Source: an uncultured Eggerthellaceae bacterium
GTDB lineage: Bacteria; Actinomycetota; Coriobacteriia; Coriobacteriales; Eggerthellaceae
NCBI GenBank assembly: GCA_905234785.1
Contig: CAJOIP010000002.1
Location: 1 to 64,000, forward strand
Direction of reading: 5' to 3'
Length of the DNA stretch: 64,000 bases
Shown here: in pieces, positions 4,590 through 54,571 of the stretch
How the letters are laid out: every line of letters starts with the position of its first letter
Position numbering within the stretch: position 1 is the first letter of the stretch
The notes under the pieces: model-generated
The model's input: only the letters and a program-made list of their open reading frames with translations
The model's database searches: none
What the model was told of the DNA's origin: nothing
Made by a program: the position numbers and the translations under genes

Positions 4590-5771
4590 ATGGTGCGCAA
4601 CATCGCGCTTCTCGGCTCAACGGGCTCGATTGGCACGCAAACCCTCGACGTCGCGCGACGCCATTCCGACAAGGTGAAGGTCGTCGCATTGGCGGCCGGC
4701 CGGCGCGGTGCAGAGGCATTTGCGCAGGCGGAGGAATTCGGCGCGCGTTTCGTGGCGCTCGGGCACGAGGCGCCCGGGTTGGAGGTTCCCGCCGGTGTGG
4801 ACGTCGCGTATGGCGCGCAGGCGGTCGCGGACCTCGTCGCGCTTCCCGAGGTCGACGTCGTCGTGAACGCGCTTGTGGGCGCGGCGGGCTTGCGGGCCAG
4901 CTACGAGACGCTGCGCGCAGGCAAGGTACTGGCGCTCGCCAACAAGGAATCGCTCGTGGTGGGCGGCGACCTCATCATGCCGCTTGCAGCACAGGTCGAC
5001 GAGCAGCGCCGAGCAGCCGGGCTCGCGCCTGCCCATGGGCCTGCCGGCGCGCTCATGCCCATCGACTCGGAGCACGGCGCGATTTACCAGTGCCTCATCG
5101 GCGAGGCGAGGCGGGAAGTGTCGCGGTTGTGGGTGACGGCATCGGGCGGCCCGTTCAGGGGGCGCACGCGCGACGAGCTGCGCGACATCACGGCGGCGCA
5201 GGCGCTCGCTCACCCCACGTGGAACATGGGGCCGAAGATCACGATCGACTCGTCAACGCTCATGAACAAGGGGCTCGAGGTCATCGAGGCTCATCACCTG
5301 TTCGACATGCCCTACGACCGCATCAGCGTCGTCGTGCAGCCGCAAAGCGCCATCCATTCCATGGTGGAGTTCTCCGACGGCTCGGTGAAGGCTCATTTGG
5401 GGACGACGGACATGCGCATCCCCATCCAGTACGCGCTGTCGTACCCCGAGCGCTGGGACGCGCCCGTCGAGCCGCTCGATTTCACGGCGCTGGGAAGCTT
5501 GGGGTTCGCCGCTCCCGACATCGAGACGTTCAAGTGCTTGGCGCTTGCGCGTGCGGCAGGCGAGCGCGGCGGCACGCTGCCCTGCGCTATGAACGCCGCC
5601 AACGAGGTTGCGGTTGCCGCGTTCCTCGAGGGGAAGGGCTCGTATCTGGGCATTGCCGAATGCGTCGAGGCGGTCATGGAAGCGCACGACGTGCAGGCGG
5701 TCGAGTCAATCGAGCAGCTTCTCGAAATCGACGCCTGGGCCCGCCGCGCAGCGTCCGAGAACGTAAGTTAA
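4590..5771 (+). CDS. dxr: 1-deoxy-D-xylulose-5-phosphate reductoisomerase
   Basis: LLGSTGSIGTQTLDV, ALANKESLVVGG, DSEHGAIYQCL, MNAANEVAVAAFL motifs. Confidence 0.97.
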   Translation: MVRNIALLGSTGSIGTQTLDVARRHSDKVKVVALAAGRRGAEAFAQAEEFGARFVALGHEAPGLEVPAGVDVAYGAQAVADLVALPEVDVVVNALVGAAGLRASYETLRAGKVLALANKESLVVGGDLIMPLAAQVDEQRRAAGLAPAHGPAGALMPIDSEHGAIYQCLIGEARREVSRLWVTASGGPFRGRTRDELRDITAAQALAHPTWNMGPKITIDSSTLMNKGLEVIEAHHLFDMPYDRISVVVQPQSAIHSMVEFSDGSVKAHLGTTDMRIPIQYALSYPERWDAPVEPLDFTALGSLGFAAPDIETFKCLALARAAGERGGTLPCAMNAANEVAVAAFLEGKGSYLGIAECVEAVMEAHDVQAVESIEQLLEIDAWARRAASENVS

Positions 5772-5826
5772 GTGGCGTTTTCCAACCGTTGAGTTTCGCC
5801 TGAAGCGCTCGCTTATAATGGAGCGC

Positions 5827-6936
5827 ATGGATATCCTGCTCACAGTGCTTTCGGCGGTCGTCGTGCTCGCGTTCCTCGTGTTCATTCACGAGGGCGGGCA
5901 TTTCGTGGCAGCGCGCGCGTTCGGCGTGCGCGTCACCGAGTTCATGATCGGCCTTCCCGGCCCGAGCGCCGGCGTGAAGCGCGGCGAGACCACATTCGGG
6001 GTCACGGCCGTTCCCCTTGGCGGATATGCGCGCGTATGCGGTATGGAGCCGGGCGAGATGAGCCCGTATTTGCAGGCTGTCATGACAAGCGTGTACGCCC
6101 GCGGAACGGCGCTCATGGAAGACGTCGCGCGCGATTGCGGCATTTCCGATGACGAGGCGTACGAAGCGCTCGAGGAGCTAGTCGAATGGGGCACGGTCAC
6201 CGGGCCCAAGAAAACCGACGAGTACAACATGTACCGCACGCCTGGCTTCAAGCCGACAGGGCGCATGCGCCGCAAGGCCCTTCAGGCCGGAATCGAGGCG
6301 CCCGTGTACGCCGAAGGCCAGCCGCGCCCGCTGGACGATCCGGTCGAGGCGTTCAAGCGGGAGTATTCCCAGCAGTACCGCTCGCTTCCGTTCTGGAAGC
6401 GCACGGTCATCCTCGTGGCGGGGCCTGGCGTGAACCTGTTGTTCGCCATTTTGGCGTTCGTGCTCATCTACTCCGTCATCGGGTTCGACTACCAAGACGC
6501 CGCGACGGGCGACGTTTCGCACATCACCGTATCGCCCTTGCGCGCCGTCCAAGCCGGGTTCATGTACATCGGCATGGTCGTGCAGGCCGTTGCGGGCCTG
6601 TTCAACCCCCAAACCGCCGCCGAGACGGTCTCGCAATCGACGAGCGTCGTCGGCATCGCCGTCATGTCGCGCAACGCGTTCGAGGCGGGCCTCACCGACG
6701 CGCTGTTCTTCACGGCGATGCTCTCGGTATCGCTCGGCGTCATGAACATGCTGCCCATTCCACCGCTCGATGGCGGCAAGTTCGTCATCGAGGTGTACCA
6801 GCGCATCCGCCGCAAGGTCGTGTCGCTGCGCGTCGTGAACTACGTATCGTGGGCGGGTGTGGCCCTGTTCACGCTGTTCTTCATCGTCATGATGAACCAG
6901 GACATTCAACGATTCGTTTTCGGAAACTGGGGTTAG
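5827..6936 (+). CDS. rseP: RseP-like M50 site-2 metalloprotease, apparently PDZ-less with a cytoplasmic insert
   Basis: FIHEGGHFVAAR (HExxH), PLGGYARVCGM, NMLPIPPLDGGK motifs; dxr-rseP-ispG order; ATG 5827 chosen because TATAAT lies at 5814-5819. Confidence 0.9.
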   Translation: MDILLTVLSAVVVLAFLVFIHEGGHFVAARAFGVRVTEFMIGLPGPSAGVKRGETTFGVTAVPLGGYARVCGMEPGEMSPYLQAVMTSVYARGTALMEDVARDCGISDDEAYEALEELVEWGTVTGPKKTDEYNMYRTPGFKPTGRMRRKALQAGIEAPVYAEGQPRPLDDPVEAFKREYSQQYRSLPFWKRTVILVAGPGVNLLFAILAFVLIYSVIGFDYQDAATGDVSHITVSPLRAVQAGFMYIGMVVQAVAGLFNPQTAAETVSQSTSVVGIAVMSRNAFEAGLTDALFFTAMLSVSLGVMNMLPIPPLDGGKFVIEVYQRIRRKVVSLRVVNYVSWAGVALFTLFFIVMMNQDIQRFVFGNWG

Positions 6937-7040
6937 CGCTGTCCTGGCATTCCGCCTCGGCTTTCAAGCATCGCTCGCGGTGCGAAGGCCGCTACGCTTA
7001 AGCTTTCAAGCCGGTTCGGGGCACCAGGACAACGCTAACC
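6931..7040. repeat. Long intergenic inverted repeat (17-bp arms, 16/17 complementary)
   Basis: GGTTAGCGCTGTCCTGG (6931-6947) vs CCAGGACAACGCTAACC (7024-7040). Confidence 0.8.
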
Positions 7041-9899: not shown

Positions 9900-9965
9900 C
9901 CGTAGGGGCGCTCTCCGAGCGCCCGCCTGCCATGGTTGACGGGCGCTCGGAGAGCGCCCCTACGG
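9900..9965. repeat. Perfect 26-bp inverted repeat, 14-nt loop (GTAGGGGCG-type repeat)
   Basis: CCGTAGGGGCGCTCTCCGAGCGCCCG / CGGGCGCTCGGAGAGCGCCCCTACGG. Confidence 0.9.
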
Positions 9966-25649: not shown

Positions 25650-27407
25650 ATGCTCGAGCAGGTCGATTTCACGGTCGAGAAAATCTCGAAGGAAGACTAC
25701 AAGCCGCACCACAAAGAGCTCATCAACAAGCTCGTCGTGCTGCAACAGCAGGCGCGCGCCAAGGGAATCGGCCTTGTGGTGCTGTTCGAGGGCTGGGGCG
25801 GCGCCGGCAAGGGCAGCCGCATTTCCGACCTCATGTACGAGCTCGACGCCCGCGCCACTACGGTGCATGTGACGGAGGACTTCGACGTCGAGGCGGCGCG
25901 CAAGTTCGTGGGCTCCGAATGGGGCGTTTCCGATTTCAAGCCCGTCATGCAGGAATTCTGGCAGGCGCTCGGCGAGCGCGGGACCATCACGTTCTACGAC
26001 CGCGGCTGGTACACGGCCGCCATCGACCAGGCGCTGTTCGAGCTGACGGGCGACAAGCCCAAGGTCGCGAAGAAGCTCGACAAGAAATCGAAGGAGCATC
26101 CGCTTCTGGAAGACGGCGCCTCGAAGGCGCGCGGCGAGTTCCACGGCGACGTCGTCGCCAGCTACCAGCGCATCGCGCACAACTTCGAGCGGATGCTCGT
26201 CGACGACGGCTACATCGTCATCAAGCTGTTCGTGCACGTGTCGAAGGAAGCCCAGAAAAAGCGCCTCGAGCGCCTGCATGACAATCCGAACACGACGTGG
26301 CGCGTGAGCCCTGAGAAGCTCGCCCAGGTGAAGCATTACGACAAGGCCTACCAGCTGTACGACCGCCTGCTCGAGACGAGCAACTTCGCGTTCGCCCCTT
26401 GGACGCTCGTCAACGGCGAGGACAAGCGCGCCGCGAACCTGCAGGTCGCCCAAGCGCTCGTCGACGCCATCGAGCACGCGCTCGCGGCCAGGCCCGACGA
26501 AGCGGCCGAGGCCGCCAAGAAGAAGGCGGCGGAAAACTCCGCCCGCGCGGCTGCCGCCATCGGCGACGGCGGTGCCGAGGGAACTGAAGTCGACGATGCC
26601 GAGGCCGTGCGCAAAGCCGCCGAGGCGGAAGCGGCGCTTCAGCACTCGCAGGCCCCGCGCGGTTCCAACTACATCATCATGGCCGGCTACCCGCAAATCG
26701 ACCACGCGAAACCGAAGCCGGTCATCGAAACCGACGAGGAGTACAAAGCGCAGCTCAAGGCCGAGCAGGCGCGCTTCGCCGAACTCGAGCTGGAAATGTA
26801 CCAGAAGCGCGTGCCGCTCATGCTCATGTACGAAGGCTGGGATGCAGCGGGCAAGGGCGGCAACATCAAGCGCGTGTGCCAGGCCATCGACGCGCGCGCC
26901 TACACCATCTTCCCGTCGCCTGCGCCGACGAAGCCCGAGCTCATGCACCCGCACCTGTGGCGCTACTGGATACGCCTCCCGAAGGCCGGCCACGTCGGCA
27001 TCTACGACCGCAGCTGGTACGGCCGCGTGCTCGTCGAGCGCATCGAGGGCTTCTCGTCGACCGACCAATGGTCCCGCGCGTACGACGAGATCAACGCGTT
27101 CGAATACGAGCTCGTGCAATGGGGCGCCATCCTGCTGAAGTTCTGGGTCGACATTACGCCCGAAGAGCAACTGCGCCGCTTCGAGGCGCGTCAGGCCGAC
27201 CCCAACAAGATTTGGAAGATCACCGACGAGGATTGGCGCAACCGCGACAAGTATCCGCAGTACAAGCAGGCGGTCGACGACATGTTCCGCCTGACGTCCA
27301 CCACGTTCGCGCCGTGGATCGTGCTCGAGAGCGACGACAAGCGCTATGCCCGCGTCCAGGCGCTGCGCGCCATCAACGAGGCGCTCGAAGAGCGCATGCA
27401 CAAGTAG
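25650..27407 (+). CDS. pap: Two-domain PPK2-type polyphosphate:AMP phosphotransferase
   Basis: Two PPK2 modules: VLFEGWGGAGKGSRI...YDRGWYTAAI and LMYEGWDAAGKGGNIKR...YDRSWYGRVLVER. Confidence 0.93.
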   Translation: MLEQVDFTVEKISKEDYKPHHKELINKLVVLQQQARAKGIGLVVLFEGWGGAGKGSRISDLMYELDARATTVHVTEDFDVEAARKFVGSEWGVSDFKPVMQEFWQALGERGTITFYDRGWYTAAIDQALFELTGDKPKVAKKLDKKSKEHPLLEDGASKARGEFHGDVVASYQRIAHNFERMLVDDGYIVIKLFVHVSKEAQKKRLERLHDNPNTTWRVSPEKLAQVKHYDKAYQLYDRLLETSNFAFAPWTLVNGEDKRAANLQVAQALVDAIEHALAARPDEAAEAAKKKAAENSARAAAAIGDGGAEGTEVDDAEAVRKAAEAEAALQHSQAPRGSNYIIMAGYPQIDHAKPKPVIETDEEYKAQLKAEQARFAELELEMYQKRVPLMLMYEGWDAAGKGGNIKRVCQAIDARAYTIFPSPAPTKPELMHPHLWRYWIRLPKAGHVGIYDRSWYGRVLVERIEGFSSTDQWSRAYDEINAFEYELVQWGAILLKFWVDITPEEQLRRFEARQADPNKIWKITDEDWRNRDKYPQYKQAVDDMFRLTSTTFAPWIVLESDDKRYARVQALRAINEALEERMHK

Positions 27408-47251: not shown

Positions 47252-47263
47252 CAACGCTATTGG

Positions 47264-47368
47264 CCCTTGCGGTAGGTGGGGATTCGCGCTTGTACTCGCT
47301 CGCATGGTTGGTGTAGGTCGAAGCCAACCGCTGCTGCGGAATCGCGCTCACCCCACCTACCGCAAGGG
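47264..47368 (+). repeat. Structured repeat E1 (18-bp perfect terminal inverted repeats)
   Basis: CCCTTGCGGTAGGTGGGG...CCCCACCTACCGCAAGGG; core related to 50582-50717 on the opposite strand. Confidence 0.85.
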
Positions 47369-47418
47369 ATAACGATCGGCTGCTCGACGGACAAACTCTT
47401 TTACATCCCGAATTCAAC

Positions 47419-47506
47419 GACCGTCTGCGCAAGCGGCGGATACCCCGCCCCCTACTGCCCGGCTCGCGCTAATTATAAAAAGCGAAGTGACCGTCTGCGC
47501 AAGCGG
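47419..47506. repeat. 18-bp direct repeat, 70-bp period
   Basis: GACCGTCTGCGCAAGCGG at 47419-47436 and 47489-47506. Confidence 0.8.
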
Positions 47507-47515
47507 TTCGTGCCC

Positions 47516-48415
47516 TTACGAGGCTTGCCGTAAGTCCTCTATGCCAAAGCCGGGCGATGGTTGGATGAGGGGTTCGGCATTCGCGGCGTGCTCCTTGCCG
47601 GTGGGGATGCGGTAGATGGAGAGCTTGCCCGAATCGGATTTGCGCACTTGGACGGCGCCTCGTTCGGCCAGCACGCGCTTGTAGGCGTTTCCGTATTTAG
47701 AAAAGGAGCGCGGGTAGGCGCCGACTGACGACAGCAGCTCGCAGAGCCACACGGGGTAGCCGCCTGCGCACTTGATTTCCATTATCACCTGGTCAGGCGC
47801 CGTGACGGGGTGGCGCTGCACCGAGTTTTCCTCCATGAGGTCGATGTAGCAGATGTCCTCGTCGAACGTGATGCGGTCGACGCAGTCTTCGTCTTCCGGG
47901 TCGACCTTGCACCATGCCTCGCGCAAACAGCTGATGAGCATCGAGGGCGCCAGGCCCTCGTAGCGGTTGAAGAACGCATCGAGCTCGCGTGCGATCTGCA
48001 CTTTGCCGGGAAGCAGCTCCTTGCTGCCATCAGTCCCGGGTATCGGCAGCTGCACCTGTGCTTGCTCGTACGGCATGCCGTTCATGTAGGCGCGCGCGCC
48101 CTCGGCGCTCATGCGCACGCGGCGCTTGTACACGATGCCCTTGTATTTCTTCTTTATCTCGACGAACACCGATTCCGCCTCGGAAAACGGGCCGTAGCTG
48201 CGGATGCGCAGCTTCTCCTTGTAAAGCGGCTTCTCGAGGGAACGGCAGATGAGCGAGCGGTCAGGCGTGTCCAAATACAGGCTGTCGATGCGCGTCGCGC
48301 CGTAGTCGTCTAAGCGCATGTGGGCGGCGAGTCCTGCTTTGATGGCCTCGCACTGGCCCGTCGTGATGAGGTACTTCTTCTCTTTGCGCTCGAACGTGTC
48401 TGCTGCAGTCGCCAT
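47516..48415 (-). CDS. VTC-domain (CYTH-like) polyphosphate polymerase
   Basis: ERKEKKYLIT, RIDSLYLDTPDRSLICRSLEKPLYKEKLRIRSYG, VFVEIKKKYKGIVYKRRVRM, VIMEIKCAGGYPVWL; start MATAADTF at 48415. Confidence 0.88.
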   Translation of the reverse strand: MATAADTFERKEKKYLITTGQCEAIKAGLAAHMRLDDYGATRIDSLYLDTPDRSLICRSLEKPLYKEKLRIRSYGPFSEAESVFVEIKKKYKGIVYKRRVRMSAEGARAYMNGMPYEQAQVQLPIPGTDGSKELLPGKVQIARELDAFFNRYEGLAPSMLISCLREAWCKVDPEDEDCVDRITFDEDICYIDLMEENSVQRHPVTAPDQVIMEIKCAGGYPVWLCELLSSVGAYPRSFSKYGNAYKRVLAERGAVQVRKSDSGKLSIYRIPTGKEHAANAEPLIQPSPGFGIEDLRQAS

Positions 48416-48445
48416 GTTGGGTTTCCTTTCCCTTGTGCCATCTGC

Positions 48446-48516
48446 ATGGTACGCGCCGCACCTGAATCGAATCTGAAAGCGCGCTTTCAGGCAGGTTTCA
48501 GCTTCTCGGCTAGAAT
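48446..48516. promoter_or_regulatory. Symmetrical divergent operator/promoter between VTC and RR genes
   Basis: CTGAAT 462-467, CTGAAA 473-478, TTTCAG 485-490, TTTCAG 496-501 (last three digits), both pairs 11-bp phased; -10 TAGAAT (48511-48516, +) and TACCAT (48451-48446, -). Confidence 0.75.
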
Positions 48517-48543
48517 GTGCTTGTACGCGGAAAGGCGGAACCA

Positions 48544-49218
48544 ATGCAGATACTCATCGTTGAAGACGACATTAGGCTGGCCCAGGCGGTCGGGAAGATC
48601 CTCGAGGAGAACGACTATCAGGTCGACATGGTGCACGACGGGCAATCGGGCCTCGACTACGCCGAGTCGGGCATCTACGACGTCGTGATCCTCGACGTCA
48701 TGTTGCCGAAGATGGACGGGTTCGTGGTATCGAAGCAACTGCGCCGCAAGGGCGTCGACACGCCGGTGCTCATGCTGACGGCGCGCTCCCAGATTCCCGA
48801 CAAGATAGAAGGGCTCGATTCGGGCGCTGACGATTACATGACCAAGCCGTTCTCGCCGGCGGAGCTGCTCGCGCATCTGCGCGCCCTCACGCGCCGCACG
48901 GGCCAGGTCGTGTTCGAGACGCTCGCGTTTTCCGACCTCGAGCTGAACCTGGAAAGCCACGACTTGAAATGCGGCAGCAAGTCCATCAACTTGTCGTACA
49001 AGGAGTTCTCGCTCATAAACATCCTCATGGCCAACCACGGCCAGATCGTGTCGAAAGACACCCTGATATCGAAAGTCTGGGGCGTCGAGTCGACCGCAGT
49101 CGATAATAATGTCGAGGCGTACGTCTCGTTCTTGCGCAAGAAGCTGAAGTTCCTGGGCTCGAAGGCTCAGATCGAGACGATTCGGAAAGTGGGATACCGC
49201 CTGACCGACGAGGGTTAG
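48544..49218 (+). CDS. OmpR/PhoB-family response regulator
   Basis: MQILIVEDDIRLAQ, VILDVMLPKMDGF, TKPFSPAELLAHLRAL, C-terminal winged helix VETIRKVGYRL-type. Confidence 0.95.
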   Translation: MQILIVEDDIRLAQAVGKILEENDYQVDMVHDGQSGLDYAESGIYDVVILDVMLPKMDGFVVSKQLRRKGVDTPVLMLTARSQIPDKIEGLDSGADDYMTKPFSPAELLAHLRALTRRTGQVVFETLAFSDLELNLESHDLKCGSKSINLSYKEFSLINILMANHGQIVSKDTLISKVWGVESTAVDNNVEAYVSFLRKKLKFLGSKAQIETIRKVGYRLTDEG

Positions 49219-49219
49219 C

Positions 49220-50569
49220 ATGCTCAAAAAACTACGCATCAAGTTCGTGGCGATCATCATGGCCTCGGTGGCCGTGGTGCTCGCCATCGTGTTCACGGGA
49301 ATCTGCATATCCGAATACCAGCGCAGCATGTCGACGGTGAACGAGGCGCTGAGCTCGTCGATCGACCGGGCGAGCAACGACGTCCTCAACGCACCCGATC
49401 CGTTCATGCGGGGCGGCGGCATGCGCTTCGACATCGAGGGCGTTTTCGACGACTTCGATGATTACGACGAGCTATCCGAGATGCTGGACGAGTTCATCGA
49501 GGATGGGGGATTCGGCGGCCCGCGCATCGGCGGCGGGCGCGAGGAAGAGCGATCGCTCGTGCCCGTGGCTGTGTACGTTCAAGATTCCTCCGGGTCGTAC
49601 ACCGCCGTTTCCCGCTATGCCACCGCTTACATCGAAGAGGATGTGCTCGCCACCGCTTCAAGCCAGCTTGCAGGCGTCGGGGAAGGGAGCGGCGAGCTTT
49701 CGGGCTTGGGGCTCGTGTACGAGAAGCGCTCAGTCGAAGGGCTTACCTACGTCGCCTTCGCCGACGCGTCGTATGCGTCGAGCTGGCAGGCGCTCGCGGT
49801 CTCGCTTTTGATTGCCGGGCTGCTCACCCTTGCCGTGTTCTTCGTGATCGCGTTGCTGCTGTCGAAGTGGGCGCTCAAACCAGTCGAAGAGGCGTGGACC
49901 GCTCAGCGCCAATTCGTGGCCGACGCATCGCATGAGCTGAAAACGCCGCTGACGGTCGTGCTGGCGAACACGTCTATTCTTTTGAAGCATCCCGAGGCGA
50001 CCATTGCGAACCAAAGCCAATGGATCGAGAGCACTCAAGTGGAAGCCGAGAGCATGCAGGGCCTCGTGAACGAGATGCTCGAATTGGCCCAAGTCGAATC
50101 GCGCGCCAACGTGCAGCATGAGCCGCTCGATTTTAGCGACATGGTTGCAGGCGAGACGCTGCAGTTCGAATCGGTGGCCTTCGAGCGCGGCTGCCGGTTC
50201 GAGGAATCGGTTGCCGAGGGCATCACGGTTTCCGGCGATGCGCAACGCCTGCGCAAGATGACGTCGACGCTCATCGAGAACGCGTTGAAGTACGTCGACG
50301 ATGGCGGCCTCGTGGAAGTAAGGCTCGAAGCCAAGGGCAACGTCGCGCACATGACCATCCACAACACCGGCTCGACCATCTCGCCCGAAGACCTTCCGCA
50401 CATCTTCGACCGCTTCTACCGCACCGACAAGGCGCGCACGTCCGGTACCGGCGGCTTCGGCCTCGGCCTCGCCATCGCCCGCGAAACCGCCCGCGAGCAC
50501 GCCGGCGACATCACCTGCAGCAGCAGCGGCTCCGGCACCACCTTCACCGTAACGCTCCCAACAGCATAG
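49220..50569 (+). CDS. Sensor histidine kinase
   Basis: Two TMs; FVADASHELKTPLTVV H-box, IFDRFYRTDKART, GFGLGLAIA. Confidence 0.95.
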   Translation: MLKKLRIKFVAIIMASVAVVLAIVFTGICISEYQRSMSTVNEALSSSIDRASNDVLNAPDPFMRGGGMRFDIEGVFDDFDDYDELSEMLDEFIEDGGFGGPRIGGGREEERSLVPVAVYVQDSSGSYTAVSRYATAYIEEDVLATASSQLAGVGEGSGELSGLGLVYEKRSVEGLTYVAFADASYASSWQALAVSLLIAGLLTLAVFFVIALLLSKWALKPVEEAWTAQRQFVADASHELKTPLTVVLANTSILLKHPEATIANQSQWIESTQVEAESMQGLVNEMLELAQVESRANVQHEPLDFSDMVAGETLQFESVAFERGCRFEESVAEGITVSGDAQRLRKMTSTLIENALKYVDDGGLVEVRLEAKGNVAHMTIHNTGSTISPEDLPHIFDRFYRTDKARTSGTGGFGLGLAIARETAREHAGDITCSSSGSGTTFTVTLPTA

Positions 50570-50581
50570 GACCTCAAGCGG

Positions 50582-50717
50582 AAGGGCGTAGCCTCTGGCT
50601 GCGGAAGGGGGCCGAGGGCGATTCCGCAGCCGGATGCGGCATCGATCGGTAAAGCCATGCGAGCGAGGACAAGCCCGAACCCCCTTCCAACCGCAGAGGA
50701 CGGACGGTTGCGCCCTT
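50582..50717 (-). repeat. Structured repeat E2, opposite orientation to E1
   Basis: Minus strand GGAAGGGGG-TTCGGGCTTGTCCTCGCTCGCATGG...GCTGCGGAATCGCCCTCGG-CCCCCTTCC plus outer arms CCTCTG/CAGAGG and AAGGGCG/CGCCCTT. Confidence 0.75.
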
Positions 50718-51693: not shown

Positions 51694-54405
<2,712 letters not shown>

Positions 54406-54465: not shown

Positions 54466-54571
54466 GGACGATGCGCGGGAGGGGGGCTAATGCATCATTT
54501 TGCCAGATGACTTTCGGACGCCCTTGTTCCCGCTGTAAAATGATGCATTAGCCCCCTCCCGCGCATCGTCC
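54466..54571. repeat. Long inverted repeat (35-bp arms, one G bulge)
   Basis: GGACGATGCGCGGGAGGGGGGCTAATGCATCATTTT / AAAATGATGCATTAGCCCCCTCCCGCGCATCGTCC, 35-nt loop. Confidence 0.9.

Follow-up and report, generated by a model that had tools for sequence, protein, structure and literature searches.

The Rickettsia palindromic elements (RPE) form several families per genome and occupy spacers as well as genes, in which they lie in frame (Ogata et al. 2000, 2002, reviewed in PMC10969869). Their arms lose identity over time (PMC6649704). Palindromes are also found in the coding sequence of Nematomorpha mitochondria, where template switching has been proposed (PMC6649704). One published explanation of compensatory change is template switching, in which a single replication event alters several bases at once (PMC8794818).

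We analyzed a 64,000-nucleotide stretch of DNA from an uncultured Eggerthellaceae bacterium (the window), in which an earlier note had described two related hairpins, E1 and E2. We found both hairpins at the positions given, with E2 on the minus strand, and the tip motifs quoted as shared by the two are correct. The note had also said that the stems differ and stay paired. This is so: GGTAGGTGGGG:CCCCACCTACC in E1 corresponds to GGAAGGGGG:CCCCCTTCC in E2, and a second stem pair, GCGC:GCGC, corresponds to GGGC:GCCC. Both hairpins represent a single element, of which they are divergent copies; we call it family A. The parts of E1 and E2 are as follows.

47256..47375, plus strand: E1, family A palindromic element (model match, E=9e-17), between glyS and VTC
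47264-47368, plus strand: E1 hairpin proper
47264..47281, plus strand: E1 5' arm, 18 bp, perfect complement of 47351-47368
47283..47307, plus strand: E1 conserved 5' core, TTCGCGCTTGTACTCGCTCGCATGG
47333..47349, plus strand: E1 conserved 3' core, GCTGCGGAATCGCGCTC
47351..47368, plus strand: E1 3' arm, 18 bp
50586..50707, minus strand: E2, family A palindromic element (model match, E=1.7e-21), between HK and DUF4956
50680..50688, minus strand: E2 5' inner arm, GGAAGGGGG (minus-strand reading), 9 bp, perfectly paired with 50603-50611; imperfect outer arm to 50699
50655..50679, minus strand: E2 conserved 5' core, TTCGGGCTTGTCCTCGCTCGCATGG
50614..50630, minus strand: E2 conserved 3' core, GCTGCGGAATCGCCCTC
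50603..50611, minus strand: E2 3' inner arm, CCCCCTTCC, 9 bp; imperfect outer arm to 50592

Just past E1, an exact 18-bp direct repeat, GACCGTCTGCGCAAGCGG, is present at 47419-47436 and 47489-47506.

With E1 as the BLAST query, the genome gave 13 places: E1 itself, E2 (E=2e-9), and 11 more. A covariance model built from 12 copies gave 33 matches in the source genome (G000), one of them a second-strand match at the same site. The earlier note had made its reading depend on further copies that keep the pairing, and the analysis supplied such copies. Family A is present in about 30 copies scattered through the source genome, most of them in spacers. An exact search for the 5' core found 25 places, a few of which are absent from the model list; one extra place, at window position 26416, lies within coding-looking sequence. 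The model also matched in 12 of the 15 genomes of the genus and, at a strict cutoff, in 20 of 138 Eggerthellaceae genomes, with a patchy distribution beyond the genus. Among named records, the core occurs together with long arms almost exclusively in assemblies of Eggerthellaceae or Coriobacteriaceae, and ruminant gut is the source of many of these. Matches to the core pattern outside Coriobacteriia (Mycobacterium, Paracoccus, and others) have no long arms, and we set them aside as chance. The model also gave single, weak hits in another family of the order, and these may reflect long hairpins in general. We found no carriage by phages or plasmids, either in viral contigs searched with the pattern or in phage and plasmid records searched by blastn with E2. 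In the open-licence literature, our searches turned up no description of such elements from Eggerthella or Coriobacteria, and family A is apparently an undescribed family of dispersed palindromic repeats.

Family A elements are approximately 105 to 145 bp long. The tip is conserved (CTTGTCCTCGC…CTGCGGAATCGC), and so, frequently, is the base, with an outer box that reads …TGTCCGC on the left and GCTACG… on the right. Between tip and base lie near-perfect arms, mostly 20 to 30 bp and at most 41 bp long. Arm sequence differs from copy to copy, sometimes wholly, yet the two arms of a copy are mostly complementary, and the predicted folds are very stable. Related core types (CAGTCCTCGC…GCTGCGGAACTG and others) have TCCTCG…CTGCGGA, or close variants of it, in common. 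At three loci (L106, L107, and L108), tandem half-elements, in which 3' or 5' halves are repeated, adjoin full copies, which suggests replication slippage at the hairpin.

We compared the E1 and E2 sites with those of relatives, all of them assemblies and mostly metagenome derived. The order glyS-VTC-RR-HK-DUF4956, where RR is a response regulator and HK a histidine kinase, is the same in G005, G007, G002, and G008. In G005, the E1 site holds an unrelated hairpin, family B, and at the E2 site a family C hairpin lies nested within the loop of a family A copy. The E2 site of G008 holds another hairpin. G007 is hairpin-free at both sites, and G002 likewise keeps the order without either hairpin. 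The earlier note had pointed out that E1 and E2 bracket VTC-RR-HK in opposite orientations and had raised the possibility of a recombination, inversion, or mobilization boundary. Because the gene order is kept where the sites are empty or otherwise filled, we concluded that E1 and E2 bound no mobile module. The orientation of two among about 30 scattered copies needs no explanation, and the bracketing carries no weight. That the pair forms the ends of a mobile or invertible segment is therefore hardly credible. Elsewhere, a family A copy of G005 corresponds to an empty site at window positions 5765-5774 within conserved gene order, and for a second G005 copy it is the source genome that has the empty site (L146/L031). 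In two cases (L036/L156 and L038/L114), one orthologous site holds different cores. We saw no clean target-site duplication at the filled and empty pairs compared.

The window holds other palindromes as well. A long hairpin at 54466-54571, with 20-bp outer and 20-bp inner arms, lies past a gene ending at 54405; a family B hairpin occupies the corresponding place in G005. A long palindrome at 9900-9965 (CCGTAGGGGCGCTCTCCGAGCGCCC…) is missing from its G005 counterpart. Similar palindromes (GTAGGGGCG) occur elsewhere, including one in frame in the source-genome murF (L213). A hairpin at approximately 6931-7039 (GGTTAGCGCTGTCCTGGC…CCAGGACAACGCTAACC) is also missing from G005.

We found family A copies in frame within protein-coding genes, some of them essential. 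Three genomes carry one in murF (G005, G009, and G010), and in the source genome the same region of MurF is occupied by a palindrome from a different family. In an ABC transporter gene, the stretch that links the membrane domain to the ATPase domain carries a copy in G001 and, in the other orientation, in G005, and a gene for an FAD-dependent protein carries one in G005. In the source genome, a copy of a related core type lies in frame at the junction of tsaE with a TsaD/TsaB-like domain. At L040 (3-2105, minus strand), tsaE, a tsaB/tsaD-like domain, and an acetyltransferase form one open frame, with tsaE joined across a palindromic element. As translated from the DNA, in-frame copies would encode a recurrent peptide, RDSAAG…HASEDKR. 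The pattern is RPE-like: the copies lie in unrelated genes, the frame stays open, and many intergenic sites are occupied too. An in-frame call made by a simple gene caller at L033 was left out of this count, since the open frame there looks like an antisense artifact.

To what extent the arms covary was measured on 43 distinct copies. In these, 94.3% of cells are paired, compared with 68.8% in shuffles, and pairing falls to 41 to 47% when the partners are slid. Double-changed cells number 378, compared with 105 in shuffles, and none of 500 shuffles reached the observed values. The alignment was fitted to the model and so favors structure; the effect is far larger than in the controls. The claim that the stems covary thus holds well beyond the two copies from which it was first made.

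The earlier note took compensatory change to imply selection on structure, in RNA or single-stranded DNA. Pairing that is kept in RNA should tolerate G·U more than A·C. We counted 25 G·T, 19 A·C, and 38 other mismatches in the arms, which shows no preference for G·U, and in codirectional contexts read in the mRNA sense there were 3 G·U and 11 A·C; these counts are small, and a model-based alignment can misplace pairs. A wider, noisier count has no wobble excess either. In a young subfamily (22 copies with 23 pairs each), we found 8 complementary double changes, whereas about 0.05 would be expected from the single changes, of which there are 16 once two copies with arm indels are set aside, if the arms were independent; the expectation is rough because the copies have common descent. 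One orthologous pair from another genus (L194/L195) has 5 double and 2 single changes in a 22-bp arm, and its apical stem has been swapped for another perfect stem. Between the orthologous murF copies of G009 and G010, each arm shows a 3-nt indel, and the spacer copies L021/L161 (G000 and G005) have indels of similar size in both arms. An excess of double changes over what the single ones predict, with no preference for wobble, is consistent with template switching, as distinct from proof of that mechanism. Since G·U is not preferred and doubles are in excess in the young subfamily, arm copying in DNA is favored over selection at the RNA level. Selection on structure is therefore not established by the compensatory changes; the covariation fits arm-to-arm copying in DNA and does not need it.

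These counts bear on the idea that the elements act as RNA, in processing, stability, or termination at transcript 3' ends, with compensatory evolution of the stem. Many copies do start 0 to 20 bases past a stop codon, and their stable predicted folds and strong covariation are what such a role would lead one to expect. Against this stand the mismatch counts, and family A is also found in both orientations, in divergent spacers, and in coding genes. We also looked for known RNA features. An Rfam scan of the window at gathering thresholds and a permissive scan of six loci found nothing credible at the elements, and no intrinsic terminator (a GC-rich stem followed by a T-run) was called at E1 or E2. 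We consider a role as RNA quite unlikely. A different kind of selection would act on the hairpin as single-stranded DNA or a cruciform, bound by an HUH-like transposase or recombinase, so that a copy would cease to move once its arms were broken and only paired arms would spread. Conservation of tip and base alongside variable arms, the Watson-Crick rather than wobble pairing, and the presence at the same sites of families B and C, which adjoin Y1 (RAYT) genes, would all suit this idea. However, recognition would be expected to preserve part of the arm sequence, and a single mismatch in a 30-bp arm should hardly matter, whereas many arms are near perfect. There is also no Y1 match in any of seven genomes that hold family A: the source genome (no PF01797 match), whose assembly is 97% complete so that absence there is not absolute, and G003, G133, G094, G015, G017, and G018. 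We regard selection on a DNA hairpin as doubtful.

The same searches bear on whether a RAYT, a Y1 transposase, mobilizes family A as a REPIN, as would be the case for families B and C of G005. RAYT-like Y1 genes are common in the genus (12 of 15 genomes), and several are flanked by palindromes of their own. In G005, one such gene (L232) is flanked by family C palindromes and another (L241) by family B palindromes. Because they adjoin RAYT genes, families B and C are probably RAYT-linked REPINs, and L232 and L241 are probably undescribed REPIN systems of Eggerthellaceae. RAYT-like genes in other genomes of the genus (L231, L235, L238, L242, L243, and L245) each lie near a distinct palindrome. 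A family A core is absent from every RAYT locus examined in the genus, and with no Y1 match in the source genome, we rejected a RAYT as the mobilizer of family A. Nor did we find a conserved REP of 20 to 40 nt repeated in the genome; unlike REPs, the arms of family A differ between copies of the source genome. That family A is a REPIN is very unlikely. Family A has the features of a MITE: it is short, has no transposase gene, has inverted-repeat ends, and is dispersed. We found neither a parent transposon with family A terminal repeats nor a mobilizing enzyme.

Taken together, we think it likely that family A is a dispersed, selfish, MITE- or RPE-like DNA repeat whose hypervariable arms are kept complementary mainly by arm-to-arm copying. 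Judging from filled and empty sites between relatives, family A would have spread selfishly, in the manner of a MITE, with some enzyme moving it. Its copies would be tolerated in spacers and protein linkers, as the Rickettsia elements are. During replication, one arm may template the other by template switching within the hairpin, a step that we infer with less certainty than the spread, and a mutation or indel would then enter both arms together. The mobilizing machinery would recognize the conserved tip and base. Concerted arm change could also come from ectopic recombination, with one copy replacing another. A more tentative version, which we consider rather unlikely, is a mobile palindrome whose conserved tip (and base) spreads, each move being accompanied or followed by self-templated fold-back synthesis that remakes the arms. 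If arms were regenerated at moves, every copy would have private, nearly perfect arms, in spacers and genes alike.

Covariation is usually read as proof of a functional RNA. Family A provides large, clean covariation from a dispersed DNA repeat, also inside proteins. The lack of a wobble preference, the disproportionate doubles, and the matched arm indels point to a mutational cause. This is a warning that covariation alone is insufficient for calling new RNAs. With many young copies per genome, elements of this kind would allow template switching to be measured directly in bacteria.

REP/REPIN sequences with their RAYTs (PMC3116915, PMC3733652) are, like family A, short, dispersed, palindromic spacer repeats. 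In contrast to a REPIN, family A is not built from two inverted copies of a conserved REP, and the source genome yielded no RAYT. Family A also resembles RPE: both are palindromic, approximately 100 to 150 bp long, divided into several families, and found in frame in unrelated metabolic genes, where they encode a recurrent peptide. RPE belong to a different phylum; the likeness is one of "works like" and not of "is," and we claim no common ancestry. Family A arms, unlike those of RPE, diverge strongly while complementarity is kept. Protein-coding palindromes, best known in Rickettsia, appear to extend to gut Actinomycetota. Template-switch hairpins have been described for RNA genes (PMC8794818), whereas family A is a dispersed bacterial repeat. 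The palindromes of Nematomorpha mitochondria are also long, perfect inverted repeats in coding genes that are gained and lost, with arm identity that is seemingly actively maintained. Family A differs from them in that a conserved core identifies its dispersed copies as related by descent, and these reside mostly in the spacers of bacterial chromosomes.
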